NCBI RefSeq assembly: GCF_001638985.1
Contig: NW_017265142.1
Span: 682,001 to 746,000 of the forward strand
DNA from: Phycomyces blakesleeanus NRRL 1555(-)
Lineage: Eukaryota; Mucoromycota; Mucoromycetes; Mucorales; Phycomycetaceae
Reading direction: 5' to 3'
Length of the DNA: 64,000 nt
Shown here: piece by piece, positions 6,413-59,669 of the stretch
Layout: every line of letters begins with the position of its first letter
Numbering within the stretch: the stretch's first letter is position 1
Position numbers and translations under genes: made by a program
The notes under the pieces: generated by a model
Databases searched by the model: none
What the model was told of the DNA's origin: nothing
The model's input: the letters and a program-made list of their open reading frames with translations, nothing else

Positions 6413-7936
<1,524 letters not shown>

Positions 7937-19182: not shown

Positions 19183-19373
19183 TGTTTATTTATTTTTACT
19201 TTGAAGTGTTAAGAGAAAAAGGAAACAAGTACAACGTTTACTAAATTTACTATGTCTTTATAATGAATTGTTATGTCTTTATAATAATAATAAATAAATA
19301 ATATTTTTGCCTGTTGTATTCAAGCCAATAAAAAACCAGAAACAGTGTTTTAATCACCACGGCAGAGAAAATG

Positions 19374-19610
19374 GTAACATGTTACCACTTTGGTAACATA
19401 ACTGCCATTTTTTACTTAATAAAAAATGGCAGTTATGACTCTGTATAAGGCCAAAACAGGCACTGTTACCATTTTTTACATAGTAAAAAATGGCAGTTAT
19501 TTATTATGTAAAAAGCCAAAACAAGCACTGTTACCATTTTTTTCATAATAAAAAATGACAGTTATTTATTATGTAAAAAGCCAAAACAGGCACTGTTACC
19601 ATTTTTCAAA
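19374..19610. repeat. Subterminal repeats of CACTA copy A
   Basis: Three direct units of 64-65 bp begin at 19421, 19485 and 19550. Each contains AAAAAATGGCAGTTAT (one base differs in unit 3) and later GCACTGTTACCATTTTT. The motif ATGGCAGTTATG also occurs near the right end (26597-26609 and 26853-26864). Such subterminal repeats are the usual transposase-binding sites of CACTA elements; the binding role here is inferred. Copy B has the mirror set at 59395-59630. Confidence 0.85.
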
Positions 19611-20617
19611 AAAAAAATCAAGCGTCCTTCCTTTCCTCTATTACATTCTTTCTTTTGTTCTATTGTTTTCAATTCTAGCACAACCTCTTGTTTTTCCTTT
19701 GCAGCTTTAACAGAATGGTCTGTTTTTTATTATACAATATTGAATCGGGTTTAATTGAATTGAATCTTTATTTCAATGCATGTTTTATTAAATGAAAATG
19801 ATAATAATAATAGTAATAATGAAAAAACAATTCCATTGGCCACTCGCAATAAAAAATGGTTCTGTTTAGCTACTGCAAAACGTATGCAGTAAAACACTAC
19901 TATTCAAATTGTATTTCATATACTTTGGGTATTCTAATATATCTTAGATAGCACTTATTATTTTTTACCAATTTCTACAAATATACTAATATTAGAGAAA
20001 AAACTTAAAATAAATAAATAGATATAATATTATTATAATGCTTACCTTTATATAATATGCTTACTTGTTCAGTAAAATAAGCATTTACTTTAAGAATATA
20101 TATATATATTAAAGAATGTATTAATATTTAAAATCTATATATAAGAAAAGCAATAAAACATAAGCACTATAGAAAGTCATTATCGTAGAAGAAGAAAAAC
20201 TTGAGCAAAGTTTCAAGTCATGTAACATGAAGCTAATTCGAATCTGATTCATACAACCAGAATGAGCATCTTGTTAGAAAGCTTAACGTGTTTATTCTAC
20301 TCAATATACTTACATATAATAGAACGACTCCCAAGTATAATATATCAGTACAAAAATATTATTATTAATTTTTTTCCCAAAAAAAAGGCTATATACTATT
20401 TCCTTTTATATTTGAATGTAGCGGAATTGTAGATGCTGTACATTAGCTTCAAATTCTTGTAATCACAACATTAGCAATCATATGAAAGAGGTTGATAAAT
20501 TTTTTATATGAAAGAAAAAAGGAATAAAAAACATAAAAAGAAAAATGACGAGATAAGAAAAAAAATGCACTAAAGACAGACTAAAAAAATCAAACTTGGC
20601 CAATCACAGCAGCCAAA

Positions 20618-21648
20618 CTACGATCTTCGGCTTCTCTTGCGAGCAGGCTCGACACTTGCTGTGGGTGGAGGAGACCTACATAAAAGAGTAAGAAGTTTAT
20701 ATTAGTTTTGTATTAACAGCGCATGAGAAAAAGCAACAATGGTAACTTACAGCACATCTGCCATTATGGGCGACTCAACATTACCAGTTTCTGACATATC
20801 AGGAGAAGAAAGTGAAGAATCACTTATGTCTCACTGTGTCTATAGCATAATAAAAGGAAACGATGTTAATTAAAGTTTACAATATATAGATTTGTTAATT
20901 GATAAACTTACTTTGTTCTTCTCTGCCATTCTTCTCTTGTGCGTCTGGTTGTCACTCTTGAAGCTTTTCCGAAGAAGGCTTCTGGCACACCACATTCTTT
21001 TACATTGGTGGATATGCAATCCACCATTCTTCGCCAACCTCTCCAAATGCATCATGTAGTATTCCCTGTTTTTCTCTGGGATATTCTTCCATTCTTTTGA
21101 GGCCGCAGGATAGTCTTTGTCAATGATATCATGCTTTACCATACGGCCTAATGTTTTGAGATGCAGTCTTTTTACTGTCAAATCATGGTCTGAAAGAGGG
21201 ACTAATGGGGGCAAAGGCTGCCCTTGTGGAACTTCTTTGTAGCGCGCCTTCCAGTCCTGCTCTTGAAGAATCTGAAGCAACAGATTGTATTTTTGTGCTT
21301 TGTTTTTTCCTTTGAACTCGCCGCCAGTATTGATTACTCACTTACCAAGCTGATCAGGGTACTCTGTGAGCTGGGCTCTTTTCACAGACTTGGCAATGCG
21401 CTCAAGAGCTACAAAAAATATATGACAATATTAATAAAGTAAATAAACATCTAAGTACAGAATATATATGACTTACAACTCTGCTCAATAATGCTTTGTT
21501 GCATTGTAGTTAGATATTCCGCACTGACTGCTGGCGCAAATTGATTGCTGAATTGCCTTTGAAACTCGCGCAATGCTTGCTTGATTTCAGCAAGATCAAC
21601 CTCAATCTTTTGAATTGAATTGAGGAGAGTTGTGTTAATATCAGACAT
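20618..21648 (-). pseudogene. CACTA accessory gene, copy A (two stop codons)
   Basis: Four exons on the minus strand: 21648-21477, 21408-20912, 20839-20751 and 20675-20618, giving 271 codons. The N-terminus is MSDINTTLLNSIQKIEVD with a coiled-coil-like stretch to about residue 45. The middle has WKARYKEVPQGQPLPPL and a conserved segment IPEKNREYYMMHLERL..HQCKRMWCARSLL. The C-terminus is SPPPTASVEPARKRSRRS, a likely nuclear localisation signal. TGA codons interrupt it at 21340-21338 (copy B has CAA there) and at 20833-20831 (shared with copy B). A TATA-like TATATAAATAG on the minus strand near 21780-21770 lies about 120 bp upstream. The function is unknown; it is probably a DNA-binding helper of the transposase. 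Confidence 0.75.
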
Positions 21649-23087
21649 GTTTAAGTTTTTTTTTAGCTATAAGCAGTGAGTTGAAAAGAAAAGGTGATAG
21701 TTTAGACAAGTAGAATAAGAGCGATTTGAGTTTGAGAAAGGCAACGATTTATTACAAGCAATTGATAGCTATTTATATAAAAAAGATACAGACAGATGTA
21801 CAAACAAAACATATAAAAGAAGGGATGCTTATGCACTTGTATGCACCTGTCTGCACCTTTCTGCAGTAGCTCATGTGAACATGATACAGTCTTTTTGTGT
21901 CGACACAACAAAACTGTAAGAAATATAAAGATAAAATGAATTAGACTTTAAATCAATATTATATGTATATATGTTCATACTTTGCACCGTCTACATATTA
22001 AATGTTTTAAAGTATATAATATAATAATATAACTCTATACATATTGCAGATATAGCATGAAATTTGGTTAAAGTTCTCGATGACAAAACCCTGTACCAGT
22101 TAAAATTATAACTTTAAATATACTCTACAGTAGCTATATAACATCTGAACATCATATAGTTAATTAGCCCCTTTTTATCAACATTAAAGTAAATGTTATG
22201 ATACTCAAGTTCATATCATACTTATTATCATTATCGACTAAAACGCGTTTTGATTGATGCTGTCATCAAAGGTAAAAATAATTTTAACTGTCATTACTAT
22301 TATTTACCAAGGGGCATTTTTGACTGAAACCGTACATTTTTGAAAAAGGTGTGCTTTAACTCACATCGGCACTTTCAATTAACACCCCTTTCGATCAGTA
22401 GTGCTTATCTTGATGATGTCAGTAAAAGAGTATCAGACTATAGCTCTCATTATCTATATCTATTTCTTTAAGTTTTATACATAAACAAGAAAATAATGCT
22501 ATTAGCTAAATATATATTCACTATCTCAAAAATATTATTAGTACAACACAGATAATATAAATATGTCTTTTCTACCAATATGTTTAGACAGTACTACTTT
22601 TTTTTAACTGTTAATTATTAGAAGGCTGTTTTTCTTTGCCTTTGGTATTAGAGAGTAATTGATAATTTATTTAAAAAAAAACATAAATTATTTGGTCATT
22701 AATTATCCTAAATATACATATACCTCTTTATAAAGCCCAAAGAATATCTAATCGCTCACAAGTAAAGAGTACGTGTCTGTTTCACCGGTGCTCTTTTAAT
22801 GGTACCCCCTTGTCAACCAAGAAGTATTTTAACTTACATCATAATTATTAATGAAAAAGAATCTTTCCAACCACGGGAATTATTTACTGACAGGTGTTTC
22901 ACCTAGCATTGACATTACTGTAATCATTGCTATATCATCATTATGAGAGAGAAAAAGAAAAAGAGCCGCAAGCATTTTGGTTAAAAAATAAAGAGTATAT
23001 AAAGATGTCTTTTACATTTAATAAATAGTACCAAAATCCTCTTCGCAGCTTTATTTTATATATTACATACGTACCAACCCAACCAAT
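21649..23087. promoter_or_regulatory. Divergent promoter region of copy A
   Basis: This 1.4 kb non-coding stretch separates the two divergent genes. TATA-like boxes face both ways: TATATAAATAG on the minus strand near 21775, and GTATATAAAG at 22995-23004 about 85 bp before the transposase ATG. The same region is conserved in copy B (49580-51018). No other gene is seen. Confidence 0.55.
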
Positions 23088-26000
23088 ATGTCTTCTTCCA
23101 ACGCCAGCCAGCAGAGAGATAGAATATCTACACAGCAATACCAATGTGATCAATGTGTCTTGTTTTTTGATAACTACCAGAAGCTGCAAAACCACAAGAG
23201 AATTCACAGAGGAGATTCAGCAACAATGACTGAAATTGACCAGTCTATTCTGGATGATGTTGACATGTACCATGACGAAAATGATACTAGTAATGAAGAT
23301 GAATCTGTTAGCAATTCAGGTAATGAAAAGAGCTGTAATTGTATTATTTATTTTCCAATTACTAAATAATGTATTACAGAATATACTATGGAGTCTATGG
23401 AGCTTGATAATACTATTTCATATAAGTGCGCATGTAATTTTGAGGACAGTGAGGGTGAAGCTCACATTTACAACAGCAGTCAAATCAGTACAAATACTTC
23501 TACCAAGGCCGAGTTGATGAGTATTCATCTGTCTCAATTGATGCTACAGCATAGAATTGCTAGAGCAGCATATAGAGACATTGTTCAATTTATAAACACT
23601 GTCATCCGAGACCATGACGATATAATGATGGGTAAAATATTATATTTTCTGTTATCTTGTACTTTAATTCCAGATCACTAACATGTAGTGATATCGGTTT
23701 TTTTTTAGAACCTGGGGGTAAGATCAGTCATGGCGAAACTGTTGATGCTTTGCTCAAGTCAAAGTCAAGTGTCAAGGACCATGAGTATGATGTCTGCTCT
23801 AGTGGTTGTCGATTGTATGGCATTAATTACGACCAGGAATCTTGTGTTGACTGCAGCAAACCGCGATACAAGACTGATCCTGATCAAGGTCAGACACCAG
23901 CCGCCAGTATGAAACTTATGTCAGTTGGGGATATGCTTTCTCAAATGTTGGCAGATCCAGCCACAAGAGAACTCCTCTGTTACAGAGCAAACCGGGAATC
24001 TGTAGCTGGTCAGCTAACCGACATTTTTGATGGTGACAATTACAAGCAGTTGGTGCAGCAGGGCCTGTTCTCCAATCCCGATGATATTGTCATTGGGCTT
24101 TATACCGATGGGTTTGTCAATCAAAAGAAAGGCAAAAACTCATATACCATCATTCATTGCATAATATTCAACCTAGACCTATCCATCAGGTAATTAATTA
24201 ATTTATTACTATTTATTATTATTACATTTTTTTTAAAAAAAAATTACTAATAAAATACTTAGATATACCAACAAATACCTTTTGCAACTGGCAATTTTGC
24301 CTGGCCCCAAGAAGCCAACTCATTTGGACTCCTTTCTTATACCCATCATCAATGAATTGCGAGATCTTGAGGCACATGGCTTGGTTGTCAAGCACAATGG
24401 AGTAGAGCTTTGCAGATCCAAGGTCTATCTTCTGCTTGCTTCTGGCGATATTCCAGCTGTAGCTGATATGGCCCACATTGGTTCCCATACAAGTTTATTT
24501 GGTTGCCATTTTTGTGAGACCAAAGGCAAATGCCCTACTAACAGATGGCATGGCATGTACTTTGATGACATTTCCGCCCGGTTAAGACCTTTGGAAGACT
24601 TCAAAGTAGGCAACCCTGTAAGTATACAAATGTTCAATTAGCCATCTTTTTTTCATACTAAATAACTGCTTGTAATAGTCGAAGAACATATACCAGCTGA
24701 GCATATATACCCAACTCTCAACCTTCTCTGGATCATCATTTTTTGTATTAGATGAACTTCATTTAATTGCAAGAGGGATTGGAAAGCTTGTGTATGACCT
24801 GATTACCATCACCCTCACAAAGGAAACCAAATTTTATTATACCCATCCAGACAATACCCTCAATACCACTGAATACCCTTTTCATATACCAAGAGCAGAC
24901 CTTGTAACAATTGGAAACTGTATCACCAGCTCACGAAAATATATACCCACCTCATTTCAAGGCAGTTTCGACAACGTATTTGCCAAGATCGATGGTACTC
25001 GCACAGTGGACTGGCTTGACTTTCTCTTATACCTTGTCCCCACTTTGGTCGTGCCTTATTTACCAAATAGGGCTGTCAAAACAGCTCTATTATCTCTCAT
25101 GAAAGGTTGCGCGCTTGCCTTGCAATGGACGTTGACATCAGAATTGCTTGATGAGATAGAGTCGTATGTTATTATACGTCTCATATATTATCATTACAAA
25201 TAGCTGATTGTTACCATTTTTTAAATATTAATAATAGATACTTCAAGCACTGGCACTCGTTTTTATATCAACAAGTCCAGAATAGTACCCTGTCTCGTAG
25301 TGTTTTCCGACCAGTGCAACATTACCTGGTCCATATACCCTATATCATCAAGCAGCAAGGCCCCCTGCAATGCTACTCCACTCGCTCAATGGAGAGAGTA
25401 ATTGGCGTCTTCTCAAAATTGATAAAGTCCAAATCAAAGGGTGGCCGAAATGCCAGTTTTCTCATTGAGTGATTTGCAATTCACAATTATACCAGCACGG
25501 CAATCAGCATCTGTGATGAAATCAACCTCATTCGGCCAAAGCCATATGGAAGAGAGAGCTACATGGACCTTCCTAATGATCCTAGTGGTGTGCAGTTGTG
25601 GGAGCCGTTTCATCAGTTTGTTAATTTGAACAATGATTCGGTGGAAGGTGTAGGCAGCCCTAGTGTGAAGGAAGCTTTATTGAAATACTACCAGAGAACA
25701 ACAGGCTTGACTGGCCATGAGTTTGGTGACTCTGTTGTTGTTGTAGCTGCACGTCTGTGGATGGACTCGACTGTATATTCCTCATGCATGTACCGAAGAA
25801 AGAAAAACGAGACCAGCCGTGGCAACCATTACGTGATGTTTACTTGCCCCTATAGAAAGTAAGTATAATATTTTTTGATATACAATCAAAAGTTGCTTAT
25901 ATTCTATTTATTTATTTATTTTAGCAACCGTAATGTAATTGTTCACAGCTGGCTCATCGGTACAGTACAGTTCTACTTTCAGCATGTAGATTTCTATGGC

Positions 26001-26276
26001 TTTCCACACTTTCTTGCTTTCATGGAGATCATGAAGGAACATGACGCGGCTGGCCATGACTCATCAGTACCTATCATCAAACAACGGTCACAAAGCACCC
26101 GTATACTAGGCCATCAAACGCAACCAACTTATGCAGTTATAAGTGTAAATGATATTTGTCATCAAGTTGGTCTGATCCAATACCCACTGAATGGAAACCA
26201 GTTTTATGTAATCGCACCCTATTATATCTTTAACAACAACATGCGCATTACTAAAGGCAATCTTTCCATTCTGTAA
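23088..26276 (+). pseudogene. tnp2-type CACTA transposase, copy A (one TGA)
   Basis: Seven exons fit without phase conflict: 23088-23319, 23380-23631, 23709-24189, 24263-24617, 24679-25163, 25238-25858 and 25925-26276, giving 925 codons to a TAA. The N-terminus has a perfect C2H2 finger (C-x2-C-x12-H-x3-H in YQCDQCVLFF..HKRIH) followed by an acidic stretch. The core has CSSGCRLYG, LYTDGFVNQKKG, LAILPGPKKPTHLDSF and a Cys/His pair around FGCHFCETKGKC. The C-terminal half has TRTVDWLDFLLYLVP and FKHWHSFLYQ. The only lesion is TGA at 25470-25472 (codon 680, after SFLIE). Copy B has the same TGA. T4 has Arg at the aligned position, so CGA to TGA is likely. The protein would cut and rejoin CACTA ends in the nucleus. 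Confidence 0.88.
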
Positions 26277-26907
26277 TCCTTTTTATTTTTATCTTATTTT
26301 TCTATATGCTCTATATCCTTATATCTTTTATATTTTTTATATCATCCTTGTATCTTACATTCTTTTTTTAATTTTCTCTATTTCTTATGTTTTTTTTAAT
26401 CTCTATATGCCCCGTCTTTCTTTTCTTCTTTATATACTCTGGTTTTTTTTCTATTCTCTATACATCTTATGCTTTTCTCTTCATTCCCTATATGCTTTAT
26501 ACGCCATTACGCGATTTAAATAAAATCAAATTGCCAATTCATCAAGATAAAAAGAATATCTAAAAAAAAAAGAACGTAGTTTAAAAAATAAAAAAAAATG
26601 GCAGTTATGTTACCATTTCGTTCACACATTCCAAAAATTATTAATCTTAATAATTGTTGACATCTTTGATATTCAATAAAACATATATTTCAATACTCAA
26701 AGTGGTCATTACAACTTACAAACATTTTTTACAGTATTGAAAATATTGTACAGCAACAAAAAAAGTGTTATTATGTTACTTTTTTAAATTGCTACGAATG
26801 AGATTACCATCTTACAACAAATGGTGGAGATTTTATTGGGTTTCGACCAAAAAAATGGCAGTTATGTGCCTACTTTTGGTCCAACTGCCATTCATCCCAC
26901 CGTAGTG

Positions 26908-28197
26908 TCTGTTTCGGTTTCTATTTTACTTTTGTTAAGCTATGATGTAATCAGGAATAAGTATCAAAGTTGTTAAATTTATTTCAATTATCTCTTGAGA
27001 AAACTCCAATAGTAAAATACACACTTTTTTATATATGGTAAACTAAAAATTTTAAAGGCATAAGCGGAAAAAGAAGTCACATTAGCATACATTTCCATAT
27101 TGGGAAGTCTATTTAAATTCCGTTAGTAATAATCATATATGTTTTTTTTAATTTTGTAAAAAAAGGCAAACTCTGCTGTAGATCTACCATTATGTCCCAA
27201 CTTTGAAGGTATATGACTTTTTATCTAGGACAGCCAGAAAAAATCTGGACCATGGAAACAATAGGTAATGATTATATCTATTATTTCCACGGTCTCGCTT
27301 TATGATAACTTGATTTTTGCAAAGGTCATATACGTTTGAAAAAGTGCCAAAAACTTAGATAGTTATCTCCAATTGTACCATATGTCAGAGTTGACATTGG
27401 TAACCAAAATTGGGATTTACAAGCAACCAGTAATGGTTGACTTTTTAGAATAAAAGATCTTGACTTTGTCAATTGGTCTATCACATATGTTTTAGATGTT
27501 TAAGATAGTAAATATACTTGTAGAAGATATTACTGAACAACAAGCATCTAAGACATATTATAGTAGCTATTCTTTTAGCCAGAAATCAATTATCATTTTA
27601 TATAAATAGTCAAGAAATACATTTAATAAAAAGCATCTTTATTTTTATCTAAAAACTATTCTTAAAAACTTAACGATCCCCAGTGGTATTGATTCTGCAA
27701 CTTAGTTACAAGTGCCAGAAAAGAAATACCAGATCAAGACCTGACACATATATCAGAGTTGACATTGTGGATAGAAATTCTTAAGTCAGGTATCCAATTG
27801 GTTATTTCTTTTAACATATGCCCTCAATATTATACCAATTGGTTCCCCTTTTTGTTACACTATGGGAAAAAGATAGTCTTTTTCGAATTTGTGGCTTCAT
27901 TTTTGGCCTATAATAATCAAAAGATTGCCAAAAATCCAAGTTGAAACAAGAAAATCTTTGTTCTTTGAAATGGTTGATAAAAAGCAAATGAATTGCTTAA
28001 AATTAAATCCCAGGAGGGACAAATGTCCATTCTAATTAAACATCTTACATTTTTTGTAAATATAGATTGGAATTGAGAAATATTGGATGTCAGAAATAAA
28101 AAAAAAGAAAATATCTAAACTTTCTGCTGCTTGGATAAAATTTGTTAAGACAATTTGAAAAAAAGAAAAATTTATTACAAAAAGAAAAAAAAACAAA
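26908..28197. other. AT-rich intergenic region between copy A and T4
   Basis: No gene was seen. A direct repeat of about 20 bp containing CAGAGTTGACATTG occurs near 27385 and 27750. An LTR-like end lies at about 27590-27700 (separate entry). Confidence 0.5.
27590..27700 (+). repeat. LTR-like 3' end with possible primer-binding site
   Basis: TATATAAATAG, then AATAAAAAGCATC, a T-rich stretch and GATCCCCAGTGGT occur in the order expected of LTR promoter, polyadenylation signal, U5 and a TGG-starting primer site. The same order and the motif GATYCCCAGTGG recur at about 59670-59785 and 60040-60135. The LTR starts were not located, so this is a family resemblance only. Confidence 0.4.
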
Positions 28198-31080
28198 TTA
28201 TATATCACTTAAGGCACCAAGTGTCAATTTTGGACCACGTTTAAGGCTAGACCAAATGATGTAATGGCTACCATTGACATTTGATGGCACCAAGCCAACC
28301 AACTCTATAATGTCACTGGCATGAATCACTATAGTCTTCGGTTTTACTACAGATGTAATAAGCAATCTATTTTTCAAATGCACACTATATATGGTTATGA
28401 GAGCTAGTAGCCATCTCTTTGAGTTGTGTACATGTTGGAAGAATATAACTACCTTTCCGAAGAAATGCTTATATTCTGGATGGTAAGAGTCGGATCTTCT
28501 GGAGTTCATGTTCACTTGTAGCTGCACATGAACATGACATGCCTCTCTTGTAGAACTTTGGTTGAATGCAGCGTCAATAACACAACTGTTAAGATAGGCC
28601 TTGCGACTTGTCTTTATGGAAGGCTCAAGCATACTACATTCTTTCCCCTTCAAATTATAAAACGTTCTAAGAAGCAATAAAAGATGAGATCTATCTTCAA
28701 AGCTATTGAAAATTGTTAAATTCTTCAAAGGCCCCCAGAACTCAATCTCACACTCAGCATTGGCAGGATCACCTCCTTCTGTAACAGGCCACCCATCGGT
28801 ATATGCACTGTAAACTAGAAGGTTAGCTAATGGAGTTTTGGTGCTTGTAACTGTTGTCAGTTCTGCTACACGCTGGGATTGCATCAGTCTGATCATGATG
28901 TTTCCAGCATTGACACTGACTTGGGAGTTACTCTTGATAGACCCGGAGTACTCATCAATGGCTCTTTCCACAGTTCGTGTGTTATATGCTCTTGGTGGGC
29001 CATATAGATCAATCATTTGAGGATAATGCTGAATAATGTGCTGGTTAATTGTGAACACGCCAATGTCAATATCTGCTGTAGAAAGAAGACTCTCTAGGAA
29101 TATGTTCTATTCTACAAGATTACTAAGAAAAAAGATAAAAGTAAATTACTATGAAAAATGAAATAAAACATGGCATTAAACATACTTTCTTATTGAGGTC
29201 TGATTCTCTGCTGATAACTTTCAGCTCATGAGTAAATTGCATGTTTGAACCAGGCCAAGTAATGCCTTTCGGGCAACCGAGTCTTGGACACGCTCTGCAA
29301 CCAACGTGAGGACAACAAAGAGTAAAAAGTCTGTCCAATCCACAGCTCTAAAGAAACTGGCATTCTTTGTCACATCTCTCCAGGCACCATGCAACAATGT
29401 AGGAATTGTGGATTTTGCGGCTACCATTGTAGCACCAATCTCCCTTTGAGTGGCAAGAGAAAGACATAGAGAATGCTTGATTCCATACTTTCTGCGTACA
29501 AGTCCCCATACCTGTTTACTGATTCCATGGCCCAGATCATGCATCTTGTCTAACGCAAAAAAAAACGGGCCAGAGAATGTTTCCATTGAGGCTAATGGTG
29601 ACTGACCATTGAGCCCCTTTCTGTCTTCACTGCTTGCCAGTTTGTAGTTTCTAAAACTCTCCAGTGAGCACGTCTGAGTTCCAGGCAACATGTAGAAGTA
29701 CTGGTCATGTTTAGGAGTTTGACCCACTATGTGACAAATACAACAGCCATTCTTACTTGTGTGGCCAACATGGCATGCCAGCTTTGCCAGAGCCAGAATA
29801 TCGCTAGTGGCCATGAGGACATGCACCTTTGCCCTGATTGTCATTGTCATTGTCTTTACTTCCATGCCTTCTGTCTGGAGTAAATGAAGATCTCTCAGAG
29901 TTGGCTTAAGAAAATACCAGATGTCACTGGGACCAGTGCAACCAGAAAGTATTGCTATTTGGATAGTCCTGTTTTTCTCATAATGGATCGTTGGACTCAA
30001 GTTCAAGACAGTTGCATGAACAATGGTTACTAATCCAGGTACATTGTATGGGTTGAACCTGTCCATGGACAACGAAATCGTAATATTATTTTCACCAGAA
30101 AACAGATGCTTCATAAATTGGTACACATGACCATCAAAAACATCTGCTTTCTGCCCGTCTTGGCTGGATTGATGGTTATGACAATAGAGCATTTCAGTCC
30201 CGGTCTTATCATCAGCCTAGCACAAAGCAAGCTGTCTGGCCAAAGGAAGCTGTACAATCGATATCACAGGAACCCTGGTATCACTTTTGCTAGTTTGGCT
30301 ATTTTGGTATCTTGCTTCACCGCATTTTACACATGCGATATCATTCTTGTTGTTGAACTGCATATAATCTCTGATGCAAATGTTGTGTCCATCTGCTTTG
30401 ATACCCGAGAAGCGCTCAAGAAGCTTGTTTTCAAGGTGTGGGCTGCATGCTTGGTACATAATATTGATAGAACAATCATGGATCTGGTTGAAGTGTTCTA
30501 CAATCTTTTTGTGGGCTTGATGAGAAATTCCGAACTCTTGGATCAACTGCATGAACGCAAGATTCTTTTTATCATTGTTGCTGGGAACAGGAAGAGGCTG
30601 GCTAAAATCAAAGACTAGCAAGGGTGTGATGCCTTCAATTTTGTCAATGACATTCTCACATTCTTCTCCAAAATCGTACTATAGTAAGATAAACAACAAT
30701 AAGTATGATTATCATAATATATATATTTATGTATCTCACCATGGACTCATCATCTTCAGTACTGTCAATGATATCCATATCCTCACTACTGCTTGTGTTG
30801 ATGTTTTCTCTGTTTGTTTATCAAAGTATACAGCTAATTAATATACTGTCTATTGTTTTGTGTTTTTGGTTTTAATAAGCTTACCCAAAAGCCAAGTTAA
30901 GAATCATTGCTGATGTAAACTGGCTTTGATCAGGAAGAGAGACAGTTTGGAAAACTTTGCTATTGGCAAGTAATTCTGCCCTATTTGTCATGCATTGTTT
31001 GAGCCATCTTTTATATGTTTGACTGTTATTAAAGGTCGACTTGCAAGTACGGCATTGGTAACGAGGGGCTTTTGTAATTT
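28198..31080 (-). pseudogene. tnp2-type CACTA transposase, decayed (T4)
   Basis: Minus-strand exons: N-terminal finger exon about 31080-30885 (YQCRTCKSTF..KQC, with the first zinc-binding His replaced by Trp and no ATG left), an acidic exon near 30800-30740, then a long exon of about 30670-29220. The long exon contains CVKCGEARYQ, LSMDRFNPYNVPG and AILSGCTGP, and a His/Cys part (HVGHTSKNGCCICH). A C-terminal exon runs to TAA at 28198-28200. Lesions are TAG at 30219-30217 (after LALC), a frameshift near 29240 and the lost start codon. It is the same divergent-type family as copies A and B, but well diverged. FFRAVDWTDFLLF aligns with TVDWLDFLLY of copy A. Its accessory gene lies to the right on the plus strand. 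Confidence 0.82.
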
Positions 31081-31429
31081 TGGATATGTTTGAGGTAGAT
31101 AAAAAAAAACTTTGTTATATAAGTAAGAATAGAATTAATTAATTTCTGAATGTATAGCTTTATACTTAATTATATAAAGACAATGATGTTATATGCATTC
31201 TGAATATATGCTCAGAATCTTAAAGAAGTATTTGTATGTCATCAGTGAAGTTACTAGATCAATGTTTCTTCAGGAGTAACCAATAGATTTGTATAAATAA
31301 TTTGAAACTAATAATTTGAAGCTAAAAAATTGAAGCTAAAGATTTGAAACTAATAATAGTTTCTGGTAAAAAATTTTCTCTTTGTTTCTTTTTCTATAAC
31401 AAACACGTAACTGATTTTTTTTTACAATT

Positions 31430-32550
31430 ATAAACAATACAGACAATACAGTGATTCAGTTGCTTCAAGGAATACAAGCTGCACTTGTGGTGATCCAGAC
31501 ACTAGGTTGTTGGATTTATTACATCTAAGAACATATTCCTATTATTATAGTAAAACAGCTATCATTACAAGAACAAATGAATAATTTATTTATTTTACTT
31601 ATGGTAAATCAATAAGACCAATAATTAATTACAGTAAGTACTGTAATTATGACAGCTCAGTAAGCACTGAGTTAATATGAGGACACTGCAATTAGATTAA
31701 ATTATAAACATAGCAGTACCAGCTCTCTAATATCTAAATGAACTCAGACTTAAGAAATTAAGATGTGACTGACAAAGCAGATCGTGTTTTGATATAAAAA
31801 GGACAACTTTGTATTCTTTAATAAAGACAACCTATATACAGTCTCAAAGTATTCTTATATACGTCTCAATCTTTTTACTGTTGATTTTATTCTATAAAAC
31901 TTCACAGCACTTATTTCTCTAAAGAGTGGTCAAGAAGCATTGCTAGGCCGTCAAGAAGCATTAGAAAAAAAACAAGATGCAATGCAACTTCAAATGACAA
32001 GTTTCTACAATGAATTTAAAGATCGGGAATTTCCAGATAGAACTATTGTAATTTCTACCAGTGTAAGCAAATACCATAACAACTAAAGTCCTTTCAATTA
32101 ATGTCAAACATAATAGACTATTACTGGCATCATTCCAAGACCCATATCAAAAATCAACGATATAACTTTAAAGCATATATATAAGATGATAACAGACAAT
32201 CTTAGAATAGAATTGACTGAGGAAACCAAGAGAATTGTTAACACATGTAACAAGGTCATATGTGATCAACTGGCAGCTCTTCCATCTGTTCAGGATCTTG
32301 GAACAAACCCTGCCTGGTCATTGTTTCCTCAAGAGGATAAAAACAGGCTGTGTATCAATCATTCTATCATACTCAGAGACAATAGAATCAATTTTACCAG
32401 ATGCCACAGAAACTGGGCATCAATTGCAAGGGTTAGCCAGCTCTGGAAAGGGTGTAAGAAGCGAGAATACTCTGGTAAGTTCATATCTGGTAGGTACAAT
32501 AAATTGTGTAATTAATGTGAGAATATGTAATAATCTGAAAGAATTTTAGC
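31430..32550 (+). pseudogene. CACTA accessory gene, decayed and split (T4)
   Basis: The first coding piece begins at ATA 31430-31432, probably a lost ATG, with NNTDNTVIQLLQGIQAAL. A solo LTR interrupts it at 31486-31906. The frame resumes in phase as ISLKSGQEALLGRQEALEKK, a coiled coil, up to a donor at 32063. The next exon (about 32115-32475) has IPRPISKINDITLKHIY, then FPQEDKNRLC and NWASIARVSQLWKG. It ends just after a short intron (acceptor near 32549). The last exon matches the T6 fragment at 63626-63904 closely and shares the Pro..Asn/Arg..Trp-Ala-Ser pattern with the T1 accessory protein. The gene is divergent from the T4 transposase. No T4 terminal repeats could be fixed. Confidence 0.75.
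31486..31906 (+). mobile_element. Solo LTR, 421 bp, second LTR family
   Basis: It starts TGTGGTGATCC and ends AAAACTTCACA, with GCACT on both sides (31481-31485 and 31907-31911) as a 5-bp target duplication. It contains GATATAAAAAGG and AATAAAG as possible promoter and polyadenylation signals. Removing it with one GCACT restores a continuous frame in the T4 accessory gene, which independently confirms the borders. Orientation was set from these signals. It is unrelated by eye to the Ty3 LTR at 51170. Confidence 0.88.
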
Positions 32551-38334: not shown

Positions 38335-38499
38335 GAATTGAGATATTTAAGGCTAATGAAAGAAATGGAAACAATGTGAATACTTTAATAATTAGAGTCG
38401 GGTTTCTTTAAAATAATAAAATAAATCAAAACATACGTAAAGGTGGAAAGTAAGGCACCAAAAGATTATTTTTCTGATGATGCTCTTTATAGCATTTTG

Positions 38500-44339: not shown

Positions 44340-44410
44340 TGCGCGGACCGGGAATCGAACCCGGGCCCTTCGCGTGGCAGGCGAAGATTATACCACTTAA
44401 CCATCCGCGC
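44340..44410 (-). tRNA. tRNA-Gly (anticodon GCC)
   Basis: A 71-nt cloverleaf on the minus strand. The acceptor stem GCGCGGA pairs perfectly with TCCGCGC, followed by discriminator A. The D-arm region is TGGTTAAGTGGTATAA. The anticodon stem TTCGC/GCGAA encloses loop CTGCCAC, giving anticodon GCC. The T-arm is CCGGGTTCGATTCCCGG with a perfect B box. No intron. This is the only clear host gene in the window and supports a nuclear chromosome. Confidence 0.97.
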
Positions 44411-49300: not shown

Positions 49301-49579
49301 TTTAGTAATTGGAAAATAAATAATACAATTACAGCTCTTTTCATTACCTGAATTGCTAACAGATTCATCTTCATTACTAGTATCATTTTCGTCATGGTAC
49401 ATGTCAACATCATCCAGAATAGACTGGTCAATTTCAGTCATTGTTGCTGAATCTCCTCTGTGAATTCTCTTGTGGTTTTGCAGCTTCTGGTAGTTATCAA
49501 AAAACAAGACACATTGATCACATTGGTATTGCTGTGTAAATATTCTATCTCTCTGCTGGCTGGCGTTGGAAGAAGACAT
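46387..49579 (-). pseudogene. tnp2-type CACTA transposase, copy B (one TGA)
   Basis: Minus-strand exons 49579-49348, 49287-49036, 48958-48478, 48400-48046, 47984-47500, 47425-46805 and 46738-46387, collinear with copy A. Intron 3 is 4 nt longer. Substitutions relative to A include several Asp/Asn and Gly/Ser exchanges, i.e. G/A transitions. The premature TGA at 47193-47191 is at the same codon (680) as in A. The C2H2 finger, GPKKP motif and C-terminal half are conserved. Apart from that TGA the frame is open. Confidence 0.88.
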
Positions 49580-51018
49580 ATTGGTTGGGTTGGTACGTAT
49601 GTAATATATAAAATAAAGCTGCGAAGAGGATTTTGGTACTATTTATTAAATGTAAAAGACATCTTTATATACTCTTTATTTTTTAACCAAAATGCTTGCG
49701 GCTCTTTTTCTTTTTCTCTCTCATAATGATGATATAGCAATGATTACAGTAATGTCAATGCTAGGTGAAACACCTGTCAGTAAATAATTCCCGTGGTTGG
49801 AAAGATTCTTTTTCATTAATAATTATGATGTAAGTTAAAATACTTCTTGGTTGACAAGGGGGTACCATTAAAAGAGCACCGGTGAAACAGACACGTACTC
49901 TTTACTTGTGAGCGATTAGATATTCTTTGGGCTTTATAAAGAGGTATATGTATATTTAGGATAATTAATGACCAAATAATTTATGTTTTTTTTTAAATAA
50001 ATTATCAATTACTCTCTAATACCAAAGGCAAAGAAAAACAGCCTTCTAATAATTAACAGTTAAAAAAAAGTAGTACTGTCTAAACATATTGGTAGAAAAG
50101 ACATATTTATATTATCTGTGTTGTACTAATAATATTTTTGAGATAGTGAATATATATTTAGCTAATAGCATTATTTTCTTGTTTATGTATAAAACTTAAA
50201 GAAATAGATATAGATAATGAGAGCTATAGTCTGATACTCTTTTACTGACATCATCAAGATAAGCACTACTGATCGAAAGGGGTGTTAATTGAAAGTGCTG
50301 ATGTGAGTTAAAGCACACCTTTTTCAAAAATGTACGGTTTCAGTCAAAAATGCCCCTTGGTAAATAATAGTAATGACAGTTAAAATTATTTTTACCTTTG
50401 ATGACAGCATCAATCAAAACGCGTTTTAGTCGATAATGATAATAAGTATGATATGAACTTGAGTATCATAACATTTACTTTAATGTTGATAAAAAGGGGC
50501 TAATTAACTATATGATGTTCAGATGTTATATAGCTACTGTAGAGTATATTTAAAGTTATAATTTTAACTGGTACAGGGTTTTGTCATCGAGAACTTTAAC
50601 CAAATTTCATGCTATATCTGCAATATGTATAGAGTTATATTATTATATCATATACTTTAAAACATTTAATATGTAGATGGTGCAAAGTATGAACATTTAT
50701 ACATATAATATTGATTTAAAGTCTAATTCATTTTATCTTTATATTTCTTACAGTTTTGTTGTGTCGACACAAAAAGACTGTATCATGTTCACATGAGCTA
50801 CTGCAGAAAGGTGCAGACAGGTTCATACAAGTGCATAAGCATCCCTTCTTTTATATGTTTTGTTTGTACATCTGTCTGTATCTTTTTCATATAAATAGCT
50901 ATCAATTGCTTGTAATAAATCGTTGCCTTTCTCAAACTCAAATCGCTCTTATTCTACTTGTCTAAACTATCACCTTTTCTTTTCAACTCACTGCTTATAG
51001 CTAAAAAAAAACTTAAAC
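49580..51018. promoter_or_regulatory. Divergent promoter region of copy B
   Basis: The inverted counterpart of 21649-23087, with TATA-like boxes facing both the transposase (minus) and the accessory gene (plus). No gene seen. Confidence 0.5.
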
Positions 51019-51169
51019 ATGTGCGATATTAACACAACTCTCCTCAACTCAATTCAAAAGATTGAGGTTGATCTTGCTGAAATCAAGCAAGCATTGCGCG
51101 AGTTTCAAAGGCAATTCAGCAATCAATTTGCGCCAGCAGTCAGTGCGGAATATCTAACTACAATGCAAC

Positions 51170-51800
51170 TGTTGTGAATGAGTATTGATTACTGCTGAAT
51201 CTGAGAGTAAGACTGAAGGATAAAATAATATCCTCAGCTATTCCAGTCAAACGGATCTCCCTTTATGATATTATCTAATACACAGATCATCATACACATA
51301 ATTGATTATTTATTATTATCACCATGACATGGGATATACAAATACATATACATTATATATATGGCATCATTATATTTCATCTACATATTTCTTTTATTAT
51401 ACAAATACTTAATTGAGAGACTACAACTACAACTATCTAATATTATGAAACATTACCCGAGTATCTGGGTCGGAATACTAAAATATTACCAATAGCATAA
51501 ATGCTCTTCTTTACCAAAACTCTTGGACTGATCTGACTGGAGAAGTATCATATCAATTGGTCTTTCCGGATCTTTCCAGAAGAACAATACTCCTGGAAGA
51601 TGACTCATCGTGATAAAGATTACTTAAGCACACACTGAATTACAAATTAGAAAAACATATAAATATCAGTAGATAGTTCCGTGTAGAAAGACAATCGAAT
51701 TTTATATTTCTTTACTTTTCTTTTGAAATAAACAACCTACACAAGTTCTCACGAATTCTTTCGTCTATATTATATTTTGCTTTATTTTCTCCCCACAACA
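51170..51800 (+). repeat. 5' LTR of the Ty3 element
   Basis: 631 bp, TG...CA ends. TATAAATA at 51658-51665 and AATAAA near 51727-51732 could serve as promoter and polyadenylation signals. Related LTRs lie at 8345-8699 (truncated) and 42315-42847 (solo). Confidence 0.95.
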
Positions 51801-51819
51801 TTTTTTTTCGTGAACTACA

Positions 51820-54800
51820 ATGAACTCTCCTGCTGACTTGTTTCCCGCTGGTTTGACCCCTGTTCCTGAGGAGGCTACCTTGTCCCCCATGTCTGCGGAT
51901 GAATTATTCTCTGACTTGAGTGAGCCCGTCCTCTTTCCGGATGCTGCCCCTGGTTTTGGTTCCGTTTCTGGTTCTGGTTCCCCTCCCGTTGGTAGAGAAG
52001 TAGCAACTGCTTCCTCCTGTGTGGCCGTTCTCAAGGCTGAATTGGGCAACCACATCGAGGCCTTCAGCGCTGCTCATGTAGCAAACAATGAGCAAGCAGC
52101 TGATGATGCACTCCGCAGGATCGAGCGCACAAGATTGGCAATCACTAGCCTTGAAAAGTGCAGCGAGATGCTTGCCTCTCCTGGTACAAACACAGAGAGA
52201 GCTGGCCGTGAAGGAGGGTTGACTCTCAACAGAAGAGATCTTCCCAAATTCCAATTGGCCTCCAGTATTATTAAGCCCTTCCCAAATGAAGAGGTTTTTG
52301 AATCAGTTGGACATTTCCTACGTACCTTCAAGAATGTGATCGAGTCTTCTTCCTTGGACATCGAGAGAGTTTGGAAGAAATTCCTCCCACTTTGCCTGCC
52401 TCACACTGATGACGGATGGGTAGAGATGGATCTTAAGAAGTGTATTGATTGGAAGGCGGCGAAATCATGCTTCAACAAAAGACATGGTTCCAGCTTGGTG
52501 TCTCGACGATTCACAGACCAGGTCTTTACAATGATGATGAAGAACACTGAGTCCATCGGTGATTACTCGAAGAAGTTCCTCCGTGCGGTTTACAATGCTG
52601 GTTTACCCAAAGACGATGCTCGCATCGCTGATCGCTTCCTTGCCTCGCTGACCTTATCAGTGCAAACACTGGTAAGAGTTACCATGGCCCGCTCTGGTCC
52701 CAATGGGGAGTCCAAGCGTGATTGGACTGTAGAGCAGATCACGCAGATCGGCAGAGACATCCTTGGGGATGACAACAGGCTCTATGCTGAGGCGACCCGA
52801 TTGATTCCTGGTTCCCGTGGGCAACCTGAGAAGAATAACGAGGAACATCCCAGAAAGAAGCTTCACCATTCCAACAAGATAACCAAGCATGAGAAGACAT
52901 TTTTCTGCTCGCACCATGGAAAAAACCCGACCCATGAGTCCAGCAAGTGTTTTACCTTGATCAACCGCAAGAACAAAGCCAGTAGTTCCAACAGTCGCAA
53001 TCCTTGCAGACGTTGTGGTGAAAACTACTACCATGGTCATGTCTGCAAAAGCAAGAACAATGAGCCAATTCTCATGGTATCCCAGTCTCCCGCAAAGGAT
53101 AAGTCTGAGCAGACGCTCAAGACGATCCAGGACAGGATAGATGAAGACATGGAGGAAATATCATTTGAATGTAAGTACCTACTTGACAGAATTGAGAGAA
53201 GAATTAAAGCTAATGATGCGTTTAATCTTGTAACTCCAATCATAATAGAGAACCAGAAGTTAATCGGGATGATCGATACAGGCAGTTCCCGCACGTTTAT
53301 AAATTTGAAATGTTTAAATAACAATTTACAAATAACAAAAATAAATTCTTCAATTGGTTCCTTTAATTTTCTGTCTAAGAATAGTAGTACAAAGAGATTA
53401 GGAAAAACTGATCCTTTAAATTTTAAATATATAAATGGCATCACCTTTAAGCATGCACCAGAGGTGTTAGAGTTTAATACGGGTTTTAATTTTGATATCC
53501 TCCTTGGAAGAGATATTTTGGCAAAGATGAATATTGGATTAATTAATGTTGCATATGATATTGAAGGAGAATATGTCCATTCAGATAATGCAAAAGACTA
53601 TGCCGCCATTTATGAAAATCTAAATATTGATAAAGAGAAAAAGTTTGAACCTGATAATTCGCCAGCTGGCACAGCACAGCAACGAGCAGAATTTATGAGC
53701 TCTATTAAAGCATCACTGGAGGAAAATAAGAATATTCCCGTTGAGTCATATTGTCCTTTATCAGAATCTATTATTCGTTTACCTACTAAGGAAGGTGCGA
53801 CGGCTTACAGACGGCAGTATCCTATACCGCACGCTCTAAGACCAACACTTGACAAGCAAGTAAAAGAATGGCTTGAGACAGGAACTATTGTCAAGTCCAA
53901 GACCAACACTTCCTTCAACAGTCCAATGTTGCTTGTTCCAAAGAGAAACAAAGCTGGTGAGATTGTCAGTCATAGAGTGTGTTTAGATGTGCGATTGTTA
54001 AATCAGATCCTACCTCCCACATTCAATTATCCAATTCCAAAAATTCAAACAATATTTCAAAACTTAAGTGGAAAGAAATTCTTTACCACACTCGACTTAT
54101 CCAATGCGTATCATCGTTTCAAAGTTGCACCTGAGGATGTACACAAACTGACATTCACTCACTTAGATGGGCAACAGTATAGCTTTATTAAAGGCTGTTT
54201 TGGCTTGAAGATGCTTACTTCACAATTTCAACATGTCATGGCTACTTTATTTGATAAGATTGACTGTGTACAGAATTTTGTTGATGATTGTATTGTTGCC
54301 AGTGAAACATTTGAACAGCATGTCAAAGACGTAAAATTAGTTATTGAAAAATTGTCATCCGCGAAGTTGATTCTGAACTCGGAAAAGTGTGTCTGGTTTC
54401 AACATTCAGTGAGATTGCTTGGTTTTGTCGTCAATGAGACAGGCACCAAGGTTGATAAGCGAAAGTTGACAAATGTTGACAAATGGCCTATTCCTACAAC
54501 TGCGAAACAGATTCAGCAATTCATGGGTTTGATCAATTACTTCAGAGATTATATTCCTATGATTTCGAAGGTAGCTGAGCCTATTTCACGTTTGAGTCAT
54601 GCCAAGAATGTGTCTGGTCAATGGACAGATGAGCAGACGAAAAGCTTTAAAGCACTAAAAGACATATTGCACCAAGATTTAATTCTTCATTACGCAGATA
54701 TGTCACGTGAAATGTATGTGGCCACAGATGCATCCCTTTATGGAGCAGCTTGCTTATTGTTTCAGCGAGATGAACAAGGGCGTGATAAATATATCAGCTT

Positions 54801-56685
54801 TGTATCAACTTCCTTAAGCCCATCGCAGCGACGATGGAGCACAACTAAAAGAGAATTATATGCAGTCGTTTTGGCGCTTGAAAAATTCCGTCCATTTCTG
54901 TGGGGCCGACAGTTCACAATTTTTACTGATCATCGAGCACTCATTTATCTCCACACTCAAAAAATCGCTAATCCGATGATGATTGGCTGGATTGAGACAC
55001 TCCTTGACTTTGATTTTAAAGTGGTCCATATTCCTGGTTTGTTGAATAAACTACCTGATTTGCTAAGCCGCTTGTATCCTCCAGAGGATAGTGACAAGCT
55101 GGTGGAGGATGATGGATTGAGAAAAATCAGAACAAATGACTTACAAGCTAAAAACAGAGTTATTGTTCAAAAGAAAAAATATAGTAAAGACAGAGTGCTA
55201 AATGTACTTGCAACGCAACTCGTCGAAAATGCTTCAGAGTCGTCCGACTATATGTCACCTCCTGAAGAAAAGCGTAATGGCTTACTAAAAGAAGCACATT
55301 CGTTTGGTCACTTTGGAAGTCAAGCTATAGTGAATGATCTTCATTCACAAGGCTTACACTGGACTAATATATATGAAGAGGCTAAAGAGATTATTCGTTC
55401 TTGCCCTGAATGTCAGAAGCACAATATTAGCAAGAAAGGCTATCACCCATTGACTAATGTTGTAGCATTCCGACCATTTGATCATATTGCAATTGACTTA
55501 TGCGGTGAATTCCCTGTATCAGAGGATGGACACACGTACATGTTAGTTCTGGTTGATGTATGCTCCAAGTACATTATCTTGAGACCACTGCCAAACAAGA
55601 ACTCAACAACAATAGCTAAAGCATTGATAAAGATTTTTGGAGATTATGGTTTTCCCAAAGTAATGCAAAGTGACAATGGTCTGGAATTTAGAAACTCTTT
55701 AATGTCAAGCCTATCTAAAGAGCTTGGGATTGATCGAAGATATTCGACAGCATATCACCCACAAGGAAATGGTATTGCCGAAGCCAGTGTAAAAATTGCA
55801 GAGAATACTGTACGTAAAATGATGAGAGCGAACAGCAATGACTGATGTCACTATCTACCGATTGTTCAGCTGTGTATCAATAGACATATTCCTCAAAAAA
55901 CACTAAGTGCGCCGTTTTCATTAATGTATGCTCGCAGAGTCAATGTGCCTGATGAGTATGGTGACAAAGATAAATACTCTCTTCCAAAAGCCACAGTTAC
56001 AATTGATGAGCTAGAGAAGCAGATTGATCATATGAAAAATATTATATTCCCTGCCATTAACGAACGTGTGTTAAGGATTAATGAGGAATTAAAAAAGAAA
56101 TATGATCACAAAAATATCCTAATCGACATCCCCAAAGGAACACACGTTATGGTCAGATTACCACATCGATCAAATAAATTGGCACCTATTTATGAAGGTC
56201 CATATACAGTGGTTCGAAAGAATAAAGGAGGATCGTATGAGTTAAAGGATGAGCAAGGTGAATTGTTACACCAAAATTATACACCCTCAGAACTCAAGAT
56301 GGTCACCATCGATGAATCAACAATTGAGAATGAGCTCTACAAAGTTGAAGACATTCGAGATCATCGTGGTACTGCTGGTCAACGAGAATATTTGGTCAAA
56401 TGGGCTGGCTATGGCGAACGCGCTAATACATGGCAAAAGGCTGAAGACTTTACCGATTCCACAATTGTACAAAAATATTGGAAGAAAGTTAGAGAGTTGG
56501 AACGTTTAGAGAATGAGAGAGCTGAAGACTTGATTAACAAAAGTGCATCCTCAAAAAAGAAAATAGTTCACACTTCAAGACTAAATGGTAAAAGTAACAA
56601 TAACGATGAGCACAAGAAAAGAACACTTCCTACCACTTTGAGTAGAGAAGAAAGATTACACAAAAGAAGAGCAACAAAAAATTAA
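51820..56685 (+). pseudogene. Ty3/Gypsy Gag-Pol polyprotein (one in-frame TGA)
   Basis: One frame of 1621 codons broken only by TGA at 55843-55845. Gag has a Cys/His segment (FCSHHGKNPTHESSKC, then CRRCGENYYHGHVC, about residues 365-410). Protease has DTGS with Asp486, followed by LLGRDIL. Reverse transcriptase has LDLSNAYHRFKV and FVDD (Asp822-823). RNase H has ATDASLYGAA and FTDHRALI. Integrase has an HHCC-type zinc region (SFGHFG..CPECQKH) and catalytic Asp1226, Asp1285 and Glu1321 (spacing 59 and 35). The TGA falls just after the integrase core where a Trp is usual, so TGG to TGA is likely. Downstream the frame continues to a C-terminal chromodomain (YLVKWAGYGERANTWQ, about 56338-56490), which in this clade targets insertion to certain chromatin. 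Confidence 0.93.
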
Positions 56686-56868
56686 AATAACAAAAAATGA
56701 ACACGTAATCCACAAAGCTGAGTTTACAGTGTAGATCTCCATAAAGTACAAAAATTATGTGCATGATTGACTATAATAAAATAAGCAATTGGCCAGACAA
56801 TGAAATAGTAAATGAAATGTTTTATTGCCGAATCAACAAAAGGTATTGTTGAATCTGGTGGAGGATAA

Positions 56869-57499
56869 TGTTGTGAATGAGTATTGATTACTGCTGAATC
56901 TGAGAGTAAGACTGAAGGATAAAATAATATCCTCAGCTATTCCAGTCAAACGGATCTCCCTTTATGATATTATCTAATACACAGATCATCATACACATAA
57001 TTGATTATTTATTATTATCACCATGACATGGGATATACAAATACATATACATTATATATATGGCATCATTATATTTCATCTACATATTTCTTTTATTATA
57101 CAAATACTTAATTGAGAGACTACAACTACAACTATCTAATATTATGAAACATTACCCGAGTATCTGGGTCGGAATACTAAAATATTACCAATAGCATAAA
57201 TGCTCTTCTTTACCAAAACTCTTGGACTGATCTGACTGGAGAAGTATCATATCAATTGGTCTTTCCGGATCTTTCCAGAAGAACAATACTCCTGGAAGAT
57301 GACTCATCGTGATAAAGATTACTTAAGCACACACTGAATTACAAATTAGAAAAACATATAAATATCAGTAGATAGTTCCGTGTAGAAAGACAATCGAATT
57401 TTATATTTCTTTACTTTTCTTTTGAAATAAACAACCTACACAAGTTCTCACGAATTCTTTCGTCTATATTATATTTTGCTTTATTTTCTCCCCACAACA
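56869..57499 (+). repeat. 3' LTR of the Ty3 element
   Basis: 631 bp and the same sequence as the 5' LTR by eye. Preceded by a purine-rich tract, followed by GCAAC. Confidence 0.95.
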
Positions 57500-58384
57500 G
57501 CAACAAAGCATTATTGAGCAGAGTTGTAAGTCATATATATTCTGTGCTTAGATGTTTATTTACTTTATTAATATTGTCATACATTTTTTGTAGCTCTTGA
57601 GCGCATTGCCGAGTCTGTGAAAAGAGCCCAGCTCACAGAGTACCCTGATCAGCTCGGTAAGCAAGTAATCAATACTGGCAGCGAGTTCAAAAGAAAAAAC
57701 GAAGCACAAAAATATAATCTGTTGCTTCAGATTCTTCACGAGCAGGACTGAAAGGCGCGCTGCAAAGAAGTTCCACAAGGGCAGCCTTTGCCCCCATTAG
57801 TCCCTCTTTCAGACCATGATTTGACAGTAAAAAGACTGTATCTCAAAACATTAGGTCGTATGGTAAAGCATGATATCATTGACAAAGACTATCCTGCGGC
57901 CTCAAAAGAATGGAAGAATATCCCAGAGAAAAACAGGGAATACTACATGATGCATTTGGAGAGGTTGGCGAAGAATGGTGGATTGCACATCCACCAATGT
58001 AAAAGAATGTGGTGTGCAAGAAGCCTTCTTCGGGAAAGCTTCAAGAGCGACAACCAGACGCACAAGAGAAGAATGGCAGAGAAGAACAAAGTAAGTTTAT
58101 CAGTTAACAAATCTATATATTGTAAACTTTAATTAACATCGTTTCCTTTTATTATGCTATAGACACAGTGAGACATAAGTGATTCTTCACTTTCTTCTCC
58201 TGATATGTCAGAAACTGGTAATGTTGAGTCGCCCATAATGGCAGATGTGCTGTAAGTTACCATTGTTGCTTTTTCTCATGCGCTGTTAATACAAAACTAA
58301 TATAAACTTCTTACTCTTTTATGTAGGTCTCCTCCACCCACAGCAAGTGTCGAGCCTGCTCGCAAGAGAAGCCGAAGATCGTAG

Positions 58385-59649
58385 TTTGGCTGCTGTGATT
58401 GGCCAAGTTTGATTTTTTTAGTCTGTCTTTAGTGCATTTTTTTTCTTATCTCGTCATTTTTCTTTTTATGTTTTTTATTCCTTTTTTCTTTCATATAAAA
58501 AATTTATCAACCTCTTTCATATGATTGCTAATGTTGTGATTACAAGAATTTGAAGCTAATGTACAGCATCTACAATTCCGCTACATTCAAATATAAAAGG
58601 AAATAGTATATAGCCTTTTTTTTGGGAAAAAAATTAATAATAATATTTTTGTACTGATATATTATACTTGGGAGTCGTTCTATTATATGTAAGTATATTG
58701 AGTAGAATAAACACGTTAAGCTTTCTAACAAGATGCTCATTCTGGTTGTATGAATCAGATTCGAATTAGCTTCATGTTACATGACTTGAAACTTTGCTCA
58801 AGTTTTTCTTCTTCTACGATAATGACTTTCTATAGTGCTTATGTTTTATTGCTTTTCTTATATATAGATCTTAAATATTAATACATTCTTTAATAAATAT
58901 ATATATATTCTTAGAGTAAATGCTTATTTTACTGAACAAGTAAGCATATTATATAAAGGTAAGCATTATAATAATATTATATCTATTTATTTATTTTAAG
59001 TTTTTTCTCTAATATTAGTATATTTGTAGAAATCGGTAAAAAATAATAAGTGCTATCTAAGATATATTAGAATACCCAAAGTATATGAAATACAATTTGA
59101 ATAGTAGTGTTTTACTGCATACGTTTTGCAGTAGCTAAACAGAACCATTTTTTATTGCAAGTGGCCGATGGAATTGTTTTTTCATTATTACTATTATTAT
59201 TATCATTTTCATTTAATAAAACATGCATTGAAATAAAGATTCAATTCAATTAAACCCGATTCAATATTGTATAATAAAAAACAGACCATTCTGTTAAAGC
59301 TGCAAAGGAAAAACAAGAGGTTGTGCTAGAATTGAAAGCGATAGAACAAAAGAAAGAATGTAATAGAGGAAAGGAAGGATGCTTGATTTTTTTTTTGAAA
59401 AATGGTAACAGTGCCTGTTTTGGCTTTTTACATAATAAATAACTGCCATTTTTTATTATGAAAAAAATGGTAACAGTGCTTGTTTTGGCTTTTTACATAA
59501 TAAATAACTGCCATTTTTTACTATGTAAAAAATGGTAACAGTGCCTGTTTTGGCCTTATACAGAGTCATAACTGCCATTTTTTATTAAGTAAAAAATGGC
59601 AGTTATGTTACCAAAGTGGTAACATGTTACCATTTTCTCTGCCGTAGTG
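58385..59649. repeat. Right end of copy B with subterminal repeats
   Basis: Non-coding and the mirror of 19355-20617. Three units containing ATAACTGCCATTTTTT and AATGGTAACAGTGC lie at about 59395-59600, and the terminal CCGTAGTG ends at 59649. Confidence 0.85.
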
Positions 59650-59669
59650 AGACATTTATAATAGCTGGA

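Follow-up and report, generated by a model that had tools for sequence, protein, structure and literature searches.

Split target repeats support an inversion between two oppositely oriented CACTA copies in Phycomyces blakesleeanus

Galileo is a transposable element (TE) with long inverted repeats. In Drosophila buzzatii, Galileo copies in opposite orientation occupy the breakpoints of inversion 2z3 and carry swapped target duplications, while the unrearranged sequence holds a single copy of each target word; the mechanism given in the relevant passages of PMC2775673 is ectopic recombination. The same passages place Galileo in the P superfamily, with 7-bp duplications (PMC2775673). Proof that a TE caused an inversion by recombination is best when both original insertion sites are available, and a second strain is usually required for this. 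Here, we analyzed a stretch of 64,000 nucleotides from Phycomyces blakesleeanus NRRL 1555(-) (assembly GCF_001638985.1, contig NW_017265142.1, positions 682,001 to 746,000 of the forward strand; "the window" is this whole stretch), in which two copies of a CACTA transposon, A and B, lie in opposite orientation. Both copies landed in repeats, named T3 and R2, that are present many times in the genome; therefore, the order that preceded insertion can be read at both sites within one assembly. We report that both targets are split between the two copies, very probably by an inversion, 18.8 kb or more in length, through a crossover between A and B.

A literature search on CACTA elements, inversion and ectopic recombination in fungi, on inversions and transposons in Mucor, and on Phycomyces returned no direct precedent as judged by title, which is no claim that none exists in print. 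It likewise returned nothing on fungal inversion breakpoints with target duplications or on CACTA elements in connection with reversed-ends transposition. Two papers on ascomycete transposons (PMC3562529, PMC4112212) use the term ectopic recombination often.

The two copies and their immediate flanks are as follows.

19355..26907, plus strand: CACTA copy A, 7,553 bp, with the ends CACCACGG...CCGTAGTG
45757..59649, minus strand: CACTA copy B, in two parts (45757-51169 and 57500-59649) split by a nested long terminal repeat (LTR) retrotransposon
19352..19354, plus strand: AAT, from the first insertion (target T3), one half of its swapped 3-bp duplication
26908..26910, plus strand: TCT, from the second insertion (target R2), one half of its swapped 3-bp duplication
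45754..45756, minus strand: ATT (AAT on the minus strand), the other half of the T3 target duplication
59650..59652, plus strand: AGA, the other half of the R2 target duplication

An earlier note on this DNA had described A and B as inverted repeats, each lacking matching 3-bp flanks of its own, whose flanks match crosswise. The sequence agrees on every point: the arm pairs (I1-I5) are identical at 98-99%, all four 3-mers read as described, and AAT pairs with ATT and TCT with AGA as reverse complements. Read in element orientation, copy A is flanked by AAT and TCT and copy B by TCT and AAT. The note put the probability of both matches arising by chance at about 1 in 4,096; the local base composition alters the figure to about 1 in 2,549. 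In the whole assembly (53.5 Mb, 60 contigs), the best 18 of 139 first-look candidates yielded 16 long copies besides A and B, so that further members of the family may exist. Fourteen of them retain both ends (L023 lacks the left end and L024 the right, and both are left out of the flank count); a perfect 3-bp duplication surrounds eight, and the flanks of the other six (L014, L015, L017, L020, L021 and L022) are unequal. Unequal flanks alone therefore weigh little. In a comparison of all 28 pairs among the eight copies with unequal flanks, A and B form the sole reciprocal pair, and no reciprocal partner was found for any of the six others. By themselves, the flank matches are suggestive; it is the search for empty target sites that makes the claim firm.

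The sequences adjoining the four flanks belong to the two target repeats.

14726..19354, plus strand: left part of T3, a CACTA-like repeat hosting the left end of copy A; matched at the join by 39 or more other copies, left limit approximate
45655..45753, minus strand: right end of the same T3 copy, now adjoining copy B and ending ...TTTTTCTAGTG
26911..26944, minus strand: short left arm of R2, now adjoining copy A; far limit approximate
59653..60191, plus strand: remainder of R2, adjoining copy B; far limit approximate, with the join test confined to 59650-59849

The 2.5 kb to the left of A has 41 genome matches besides the window, at 83-96% identity, and 35 of these reach right to the insertion point (best 40 of 359 candidates). 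The first bases beyond the right end of B likewise belong to a repeat, R2. If the segment between the copies was flipped, empty T3 sites should join 19354 to the reverse complement of 45753, and empty R2 sites the reverse complement of 26911 to 59653, as the earlier note had pointed out. Such sites exist at paralogous copies of both repeats. The predicted T3 join was searched as a 299-nt query with the junction at 200: among the best 40 of 52 candidates, 39 of 40 matches span the junction and run to base 296 or beyond, the fortieth being the window's own left half, which stops at 201. The query for the predicted R2 join measured 240 nt and had its junction at 40: among the best 40 of 172 candidates, 39 of 45 matches begin at base 7-10 and thus span the junction, while the other six comprise the right half present in the window itself and five stretches starting at base 64, short of the join. 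The present order gave the opposite result in the control searches. At one join, none of 40 matches extends more than 3 nt beyond the junction (best 40 of 95 candidates), and at the other none of 49 extends more than 3 nt before it (best 40 of 199 candidates). Restriction to the best-scoring candidates should weaken these controls little, because a copy that spans the whole present-order query would be expected to outscore the listed ones through its larger number of shared words.

Individual loci agree with the searches. Past the insertion point, four T3 copies (L033-L036) continue into the reverse complement of the window at 45753, not into the sequence at 26911. Of six R2 relatives fetched, four fit: L037 and L038 carry a single AGA, past which they match the reverse complement of the window from 26911 onwards, and the alignments of L041 and L042 take the same form. 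The target words themselves were read at a larger set of loci. Among 24 readable T3 copies, all different, the word is CAT in 21 and TAT in 3 (26 small loci were sampled; L048 and L050 stop short of the target, and the copy in L048 was read as L053). AAT occurs in none of these 24 copies, yet it is present at both separated flanks in the window. It looks like a private variant of a single T3 copy, and the link between the two AAT flanks is therefore stronger. Among 16 R2 loci (without L039 and L040), the word is AGA in 15 and AAA in one. Each flank pair is thus derived from one target.

The targets are thus split, the duplications are swapped, and the four element ends lie at the expected places in the expected orientation. 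An inversion by crossover between inverted CACTA copies, as the earlier note had proposed, is very probably the cause; both predicted joins were recovered, and the present-order joins were absent from all matches. A CACTA element X would have inserted into a T3 repeat at AAT, and an element Y of the same family would have entered an R2 repeat at AGA separately and in opposite orientation. The intervening DNA would later have been inverted by homologous recombination with a crossover inside the two 7.55 kb copies. The present copy A would then consist of the left end of X and the right end of Y, and copy B of the left end of Y and the right end of X; T3 and R2 would have been divided between the two breakpoints and their duplications swapped. 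We infer a crossover rather than template switching. The segment that would have been turned in any case is the following.

26908..45756, no strand: smallest segment inside the inversion, holding T4, T5, the element that the earlier note calls DDE, and tRNA-Gly (44339-44410)

The note had given the size of the inversion as 18.8 kb. This stands as a minimum (18.85 kb), because the exchange points would fall somewhere inside copies A and B; it does not stand as the full size, which may reach 40.3 kb.

In comparison with Galileo 2z3, as described in the relevant passages of PMC2775673, the likeness extends to inverted homologous copies at both breakpoints, swapped target duplications, an unrearranged sequence with one target word for each insertion, and ectopic recombination as the mechanism. 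Here, the unrearranged targets were found in inverted order, with a negative present-order control, at paralogous repeats rather than on another chromosome. Further differences from those passages are a CACTA element with 3-bp duplications, a fungal host, and a segment of 18.8-40 kb. The Galileo copies are reported there to be chimeric (PMC2775673); A and B share sequence in patches, and their parental copies are indistinguishable. The mechanism is of a known kind, and the event is of an ordinary type. Its interest lies in the landing of both copies in multicopy repeats, through which one assembly alone reveals the pre-insertion order at both sites; the same use of split paralogous targets could reveal TE-mediated inversions, or misassemblies, in other repeat-rich assemblies.

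The patchy sharing was studied by comparing the pair with the 16 other long copies. Identity between A and B is 99.13%, with 66 aligned substitutions plus small gaps, and each is the closest copy to the other; L009 comes next for both, at 98.30 and 98.29%. The pair L009 and L010 reaches 99.28%, above A and B. Alleles exclusive to A and B, absent from all 16 other copies, number 39, compared with 7 for the next pair. They lie at A positions 857-1479 and 2162-7471, where they amount to 6.6 per kb, and none was found at A positions 1-856 and 1545-2161. Private changes are distributed in the opposite way: 7.8 per kb in A and 5.0 in B in the unshared parts (0.7-24.6 in other copies), against 1.5 and 1.7 per kb in the shared parts (0.7-17.4 in other copies). 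Of the 66 substitutions, 21 are changes in A only, 19 are changes in B only, and 26 have both alleles among the other copies. The clustering of shared sites relative to A-only and B-only sites was matched in 7 of 20,000 shuffles by runs and in 16 of 20,000 by maximum chi-square. Such sharing, over about 80% of the length, points to exchange between A and B, and the simplest account would be that two old, separate copies were homogenized at roughly a fifth of their age, since 1.6 private changes per kb accompany 6.6 in common. Gene conversion, during the inversion exchange itself or during other contacts between the copies, probably homogenized this part; A and B would then illustrate how transposon copies in opposite orientation probably convert one another.

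Several observations weigh against an inversion with later homogenization as proposed here. The unflipped order is read at paralogous empty sites rather than at the locus itself in a second strain. Two of the six R2 relatives do not contribute, L039 being too diverged for alignment and L040 being rearranged beside the arm. The probability of 2.5e-4 for finding no exclusive sites in the unshared regions is too small, because the regions were drawn after the sites had been seen; the shuffle tests are free of that cut. Moreover, the exclusive alleles extend almost to the right end of the element (position 7471), 12 of the 31 differences between A and B in the unshared parts have both alleles among other copies, and A and B do not differ at all along two runs of about 760 bp, within which an assembly from short or Sanger reads could pass from one copy to the other.

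The extent of the exclusive alleles and the 12 differences would also fit a history in which A and B are mother and daughter of a local hop: their sharing would predate the inversion, a plain crossover would have followed later, and third copies would have overwritten part of the left 2.1 kb. The 12 differences could equally be the result of recurrent C>T changes. Among the 16 copies compared, the nearest third copies to A and B reach 97.6-97.8% over positions 1500-2000 and 98.8-99.2% in two intervals of positions 1-1000. The rates of private change, high in the unshared parts and low in the shared parts beside the 6.6 per kb held in common, argue against mother and daughter and fit two old separate copies homogenized late. 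We regard such descent as possible but rather doubtful, a judgement on the history of the copies that leaves the inversion untouched and does not compete with those on the alternatives below.

A further reading is a standing flip-flop. A and B would keep recombining, both orders of the 18.8-40 kb segment would be found in the species or among the nuclei of a mycelium, and repeated exchange would maintain the likeness of the copies in their middle and right parts as the left ends diverge with age; we consider this unlikely.

Under an assembly flip, the chromosome would still have X in its T3 target and Y in its R2 target in the order of insertion, with the wrong arms joined within the repeats, and all four junctions would be marked identically. 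The high identity of A and B and the two difference-free runs speak for such an error. Against it stand the 66 substitutions and the small gaps: stretches without a difference reach about 767 bp at most, and any reads well above that length would separate A from B. The 82 loci fetched (294,509 bases, overlaps counted twice) contain no N, and copies of the 6.3 kb retrotransposon at 99-100% identity are fully assembled at 14 places, the window included. Contig C50 starts inside a copy of this retrotransposon, and contig C4 stops no more than a few bases from a T3 match. Together, these features look like those of a gap-free contig assembly from long reads. A misjoin is accordingly quite improbable in our estimation, and the present order would be that of the living strain.

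The other transposon route to inversions named in the relevant passages of PMC2775673 is aberrant transposition, in which the transposase pairs one end from each of two copies as a hybrid element. Aberrant transposition would place the ends elsewhere, beside a freshly made duplication, and no such site is seen at A and B: each of the four ends lies, correctly oriented, where its element first inserted, and a single 3-bp word restores each target. What has changed is how the ends are connected within the elements, which argues for exchange between inverted repeats and not for a transposase acting on the ends, and we reject the alternative, also termed reversed-ends transposition, as very unlikely. 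That there was no rearrangement, the flanks having diverged or matching by chance, draws on the unequal flanks of other copies but is refuted by the empty sites, as two independent targets are rebuilt only in inverted order and both AAT flanks carry the same unusual base; its probability is negligible.

The CACTA label of A and B rests on their ends and duplications. The termini are CACTA.../...TAGTG, copy B ending in CACTACGG...CCGTAGTG and copy A having CACCACGG at its left and CCGTAGTG at its right end; the perfect duplications around eight other copies, and the single word in both empty sites, are 3 bp long. The open reading frame (ORF) at 24282-24641 of copy A has a weak match to the tnp2 family Transposase_21 (E 2.2e-4; 20.9 bits, under the cut-off of 28.6) in a Pfam scan that covered 10 of 35 ORFs. 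Likeness to the CACTA (En/Spm) superfamily comprises the ends, the duplications and repeats near the left end. Nothing unusual for the superfamily was seen in A and B, whose coding region appears as short ORFs when read without intron models.

Across the 18 CACTA copies, C>T and G>A changes make up 517 of 761 low-frequency two-letter sites. They affect 54% of CpG positions (182 of 336) and 15% of other C or G positions (346 of 2,320), an excess at CpG as expected if methylated C decays.

The other copies with unequal flanks may include further rearranged ones. L021 was considered and set aside: a comparison of flanks against each other placed it in a paralogue of the window's sequence near 44650, where the order of the flanks is normal, and their inequality is therefore no evidence of rearrangement. 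The right flank of L022 (G000:C33:9200-17300) adjoins an R2 copy, and a single repeat holds the overlapping flanks of L013 and L014.

The T3 copy in the window ends abruptly near 14726, where six other T3 copies fetched run on. The target duplication of T3 itself was tried as a third independent mark and dropped, the window's copy being shortened at this point. Two T3 ORFs at 16261-18185 (minus strand) resemble the transposase ORFs of T5 by eye, and copy A seems to be a CACTA element inserted into a CACTA-like element.

The element nested in copy B is the following.

51170..57499, plus strand: LTR retrotransposon, with 631-nt LTRs that show no difference and a 5-bp duplication GCAAC at 51165-51169 and 57500-57504

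Its second ORF (55924-56685) has a chromodomain match. Thirteen further full-length matches at 99-100% were found in the genome (best 22 of 512 candidates), and the family probably went through a very recent burst. The first 500 residues of its polyprotein are 92% identical to a Mucor saturninus protein; the next polyprotein matches with a named organism are from Rhizopus delemar (46-49%) and Mucor velutinosus (37%). Taken as evidence from a single mobile element, these matches point to a Mucorales host.

Within the segment between A and B, the scan covered two ORFs of the DDE element, 41973-42326 and 42856-43464, and neither has a Pfam match. Transposase_21 was detected above the cut-off in ORFs of T4 and T5, at 30.5 and 56.8 bits. 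Elsewhere in the window, a tandem array with a 12-nt period (7551-7949) encodes a serine-asparagine run within a 507-aa ORF on the minus strand.

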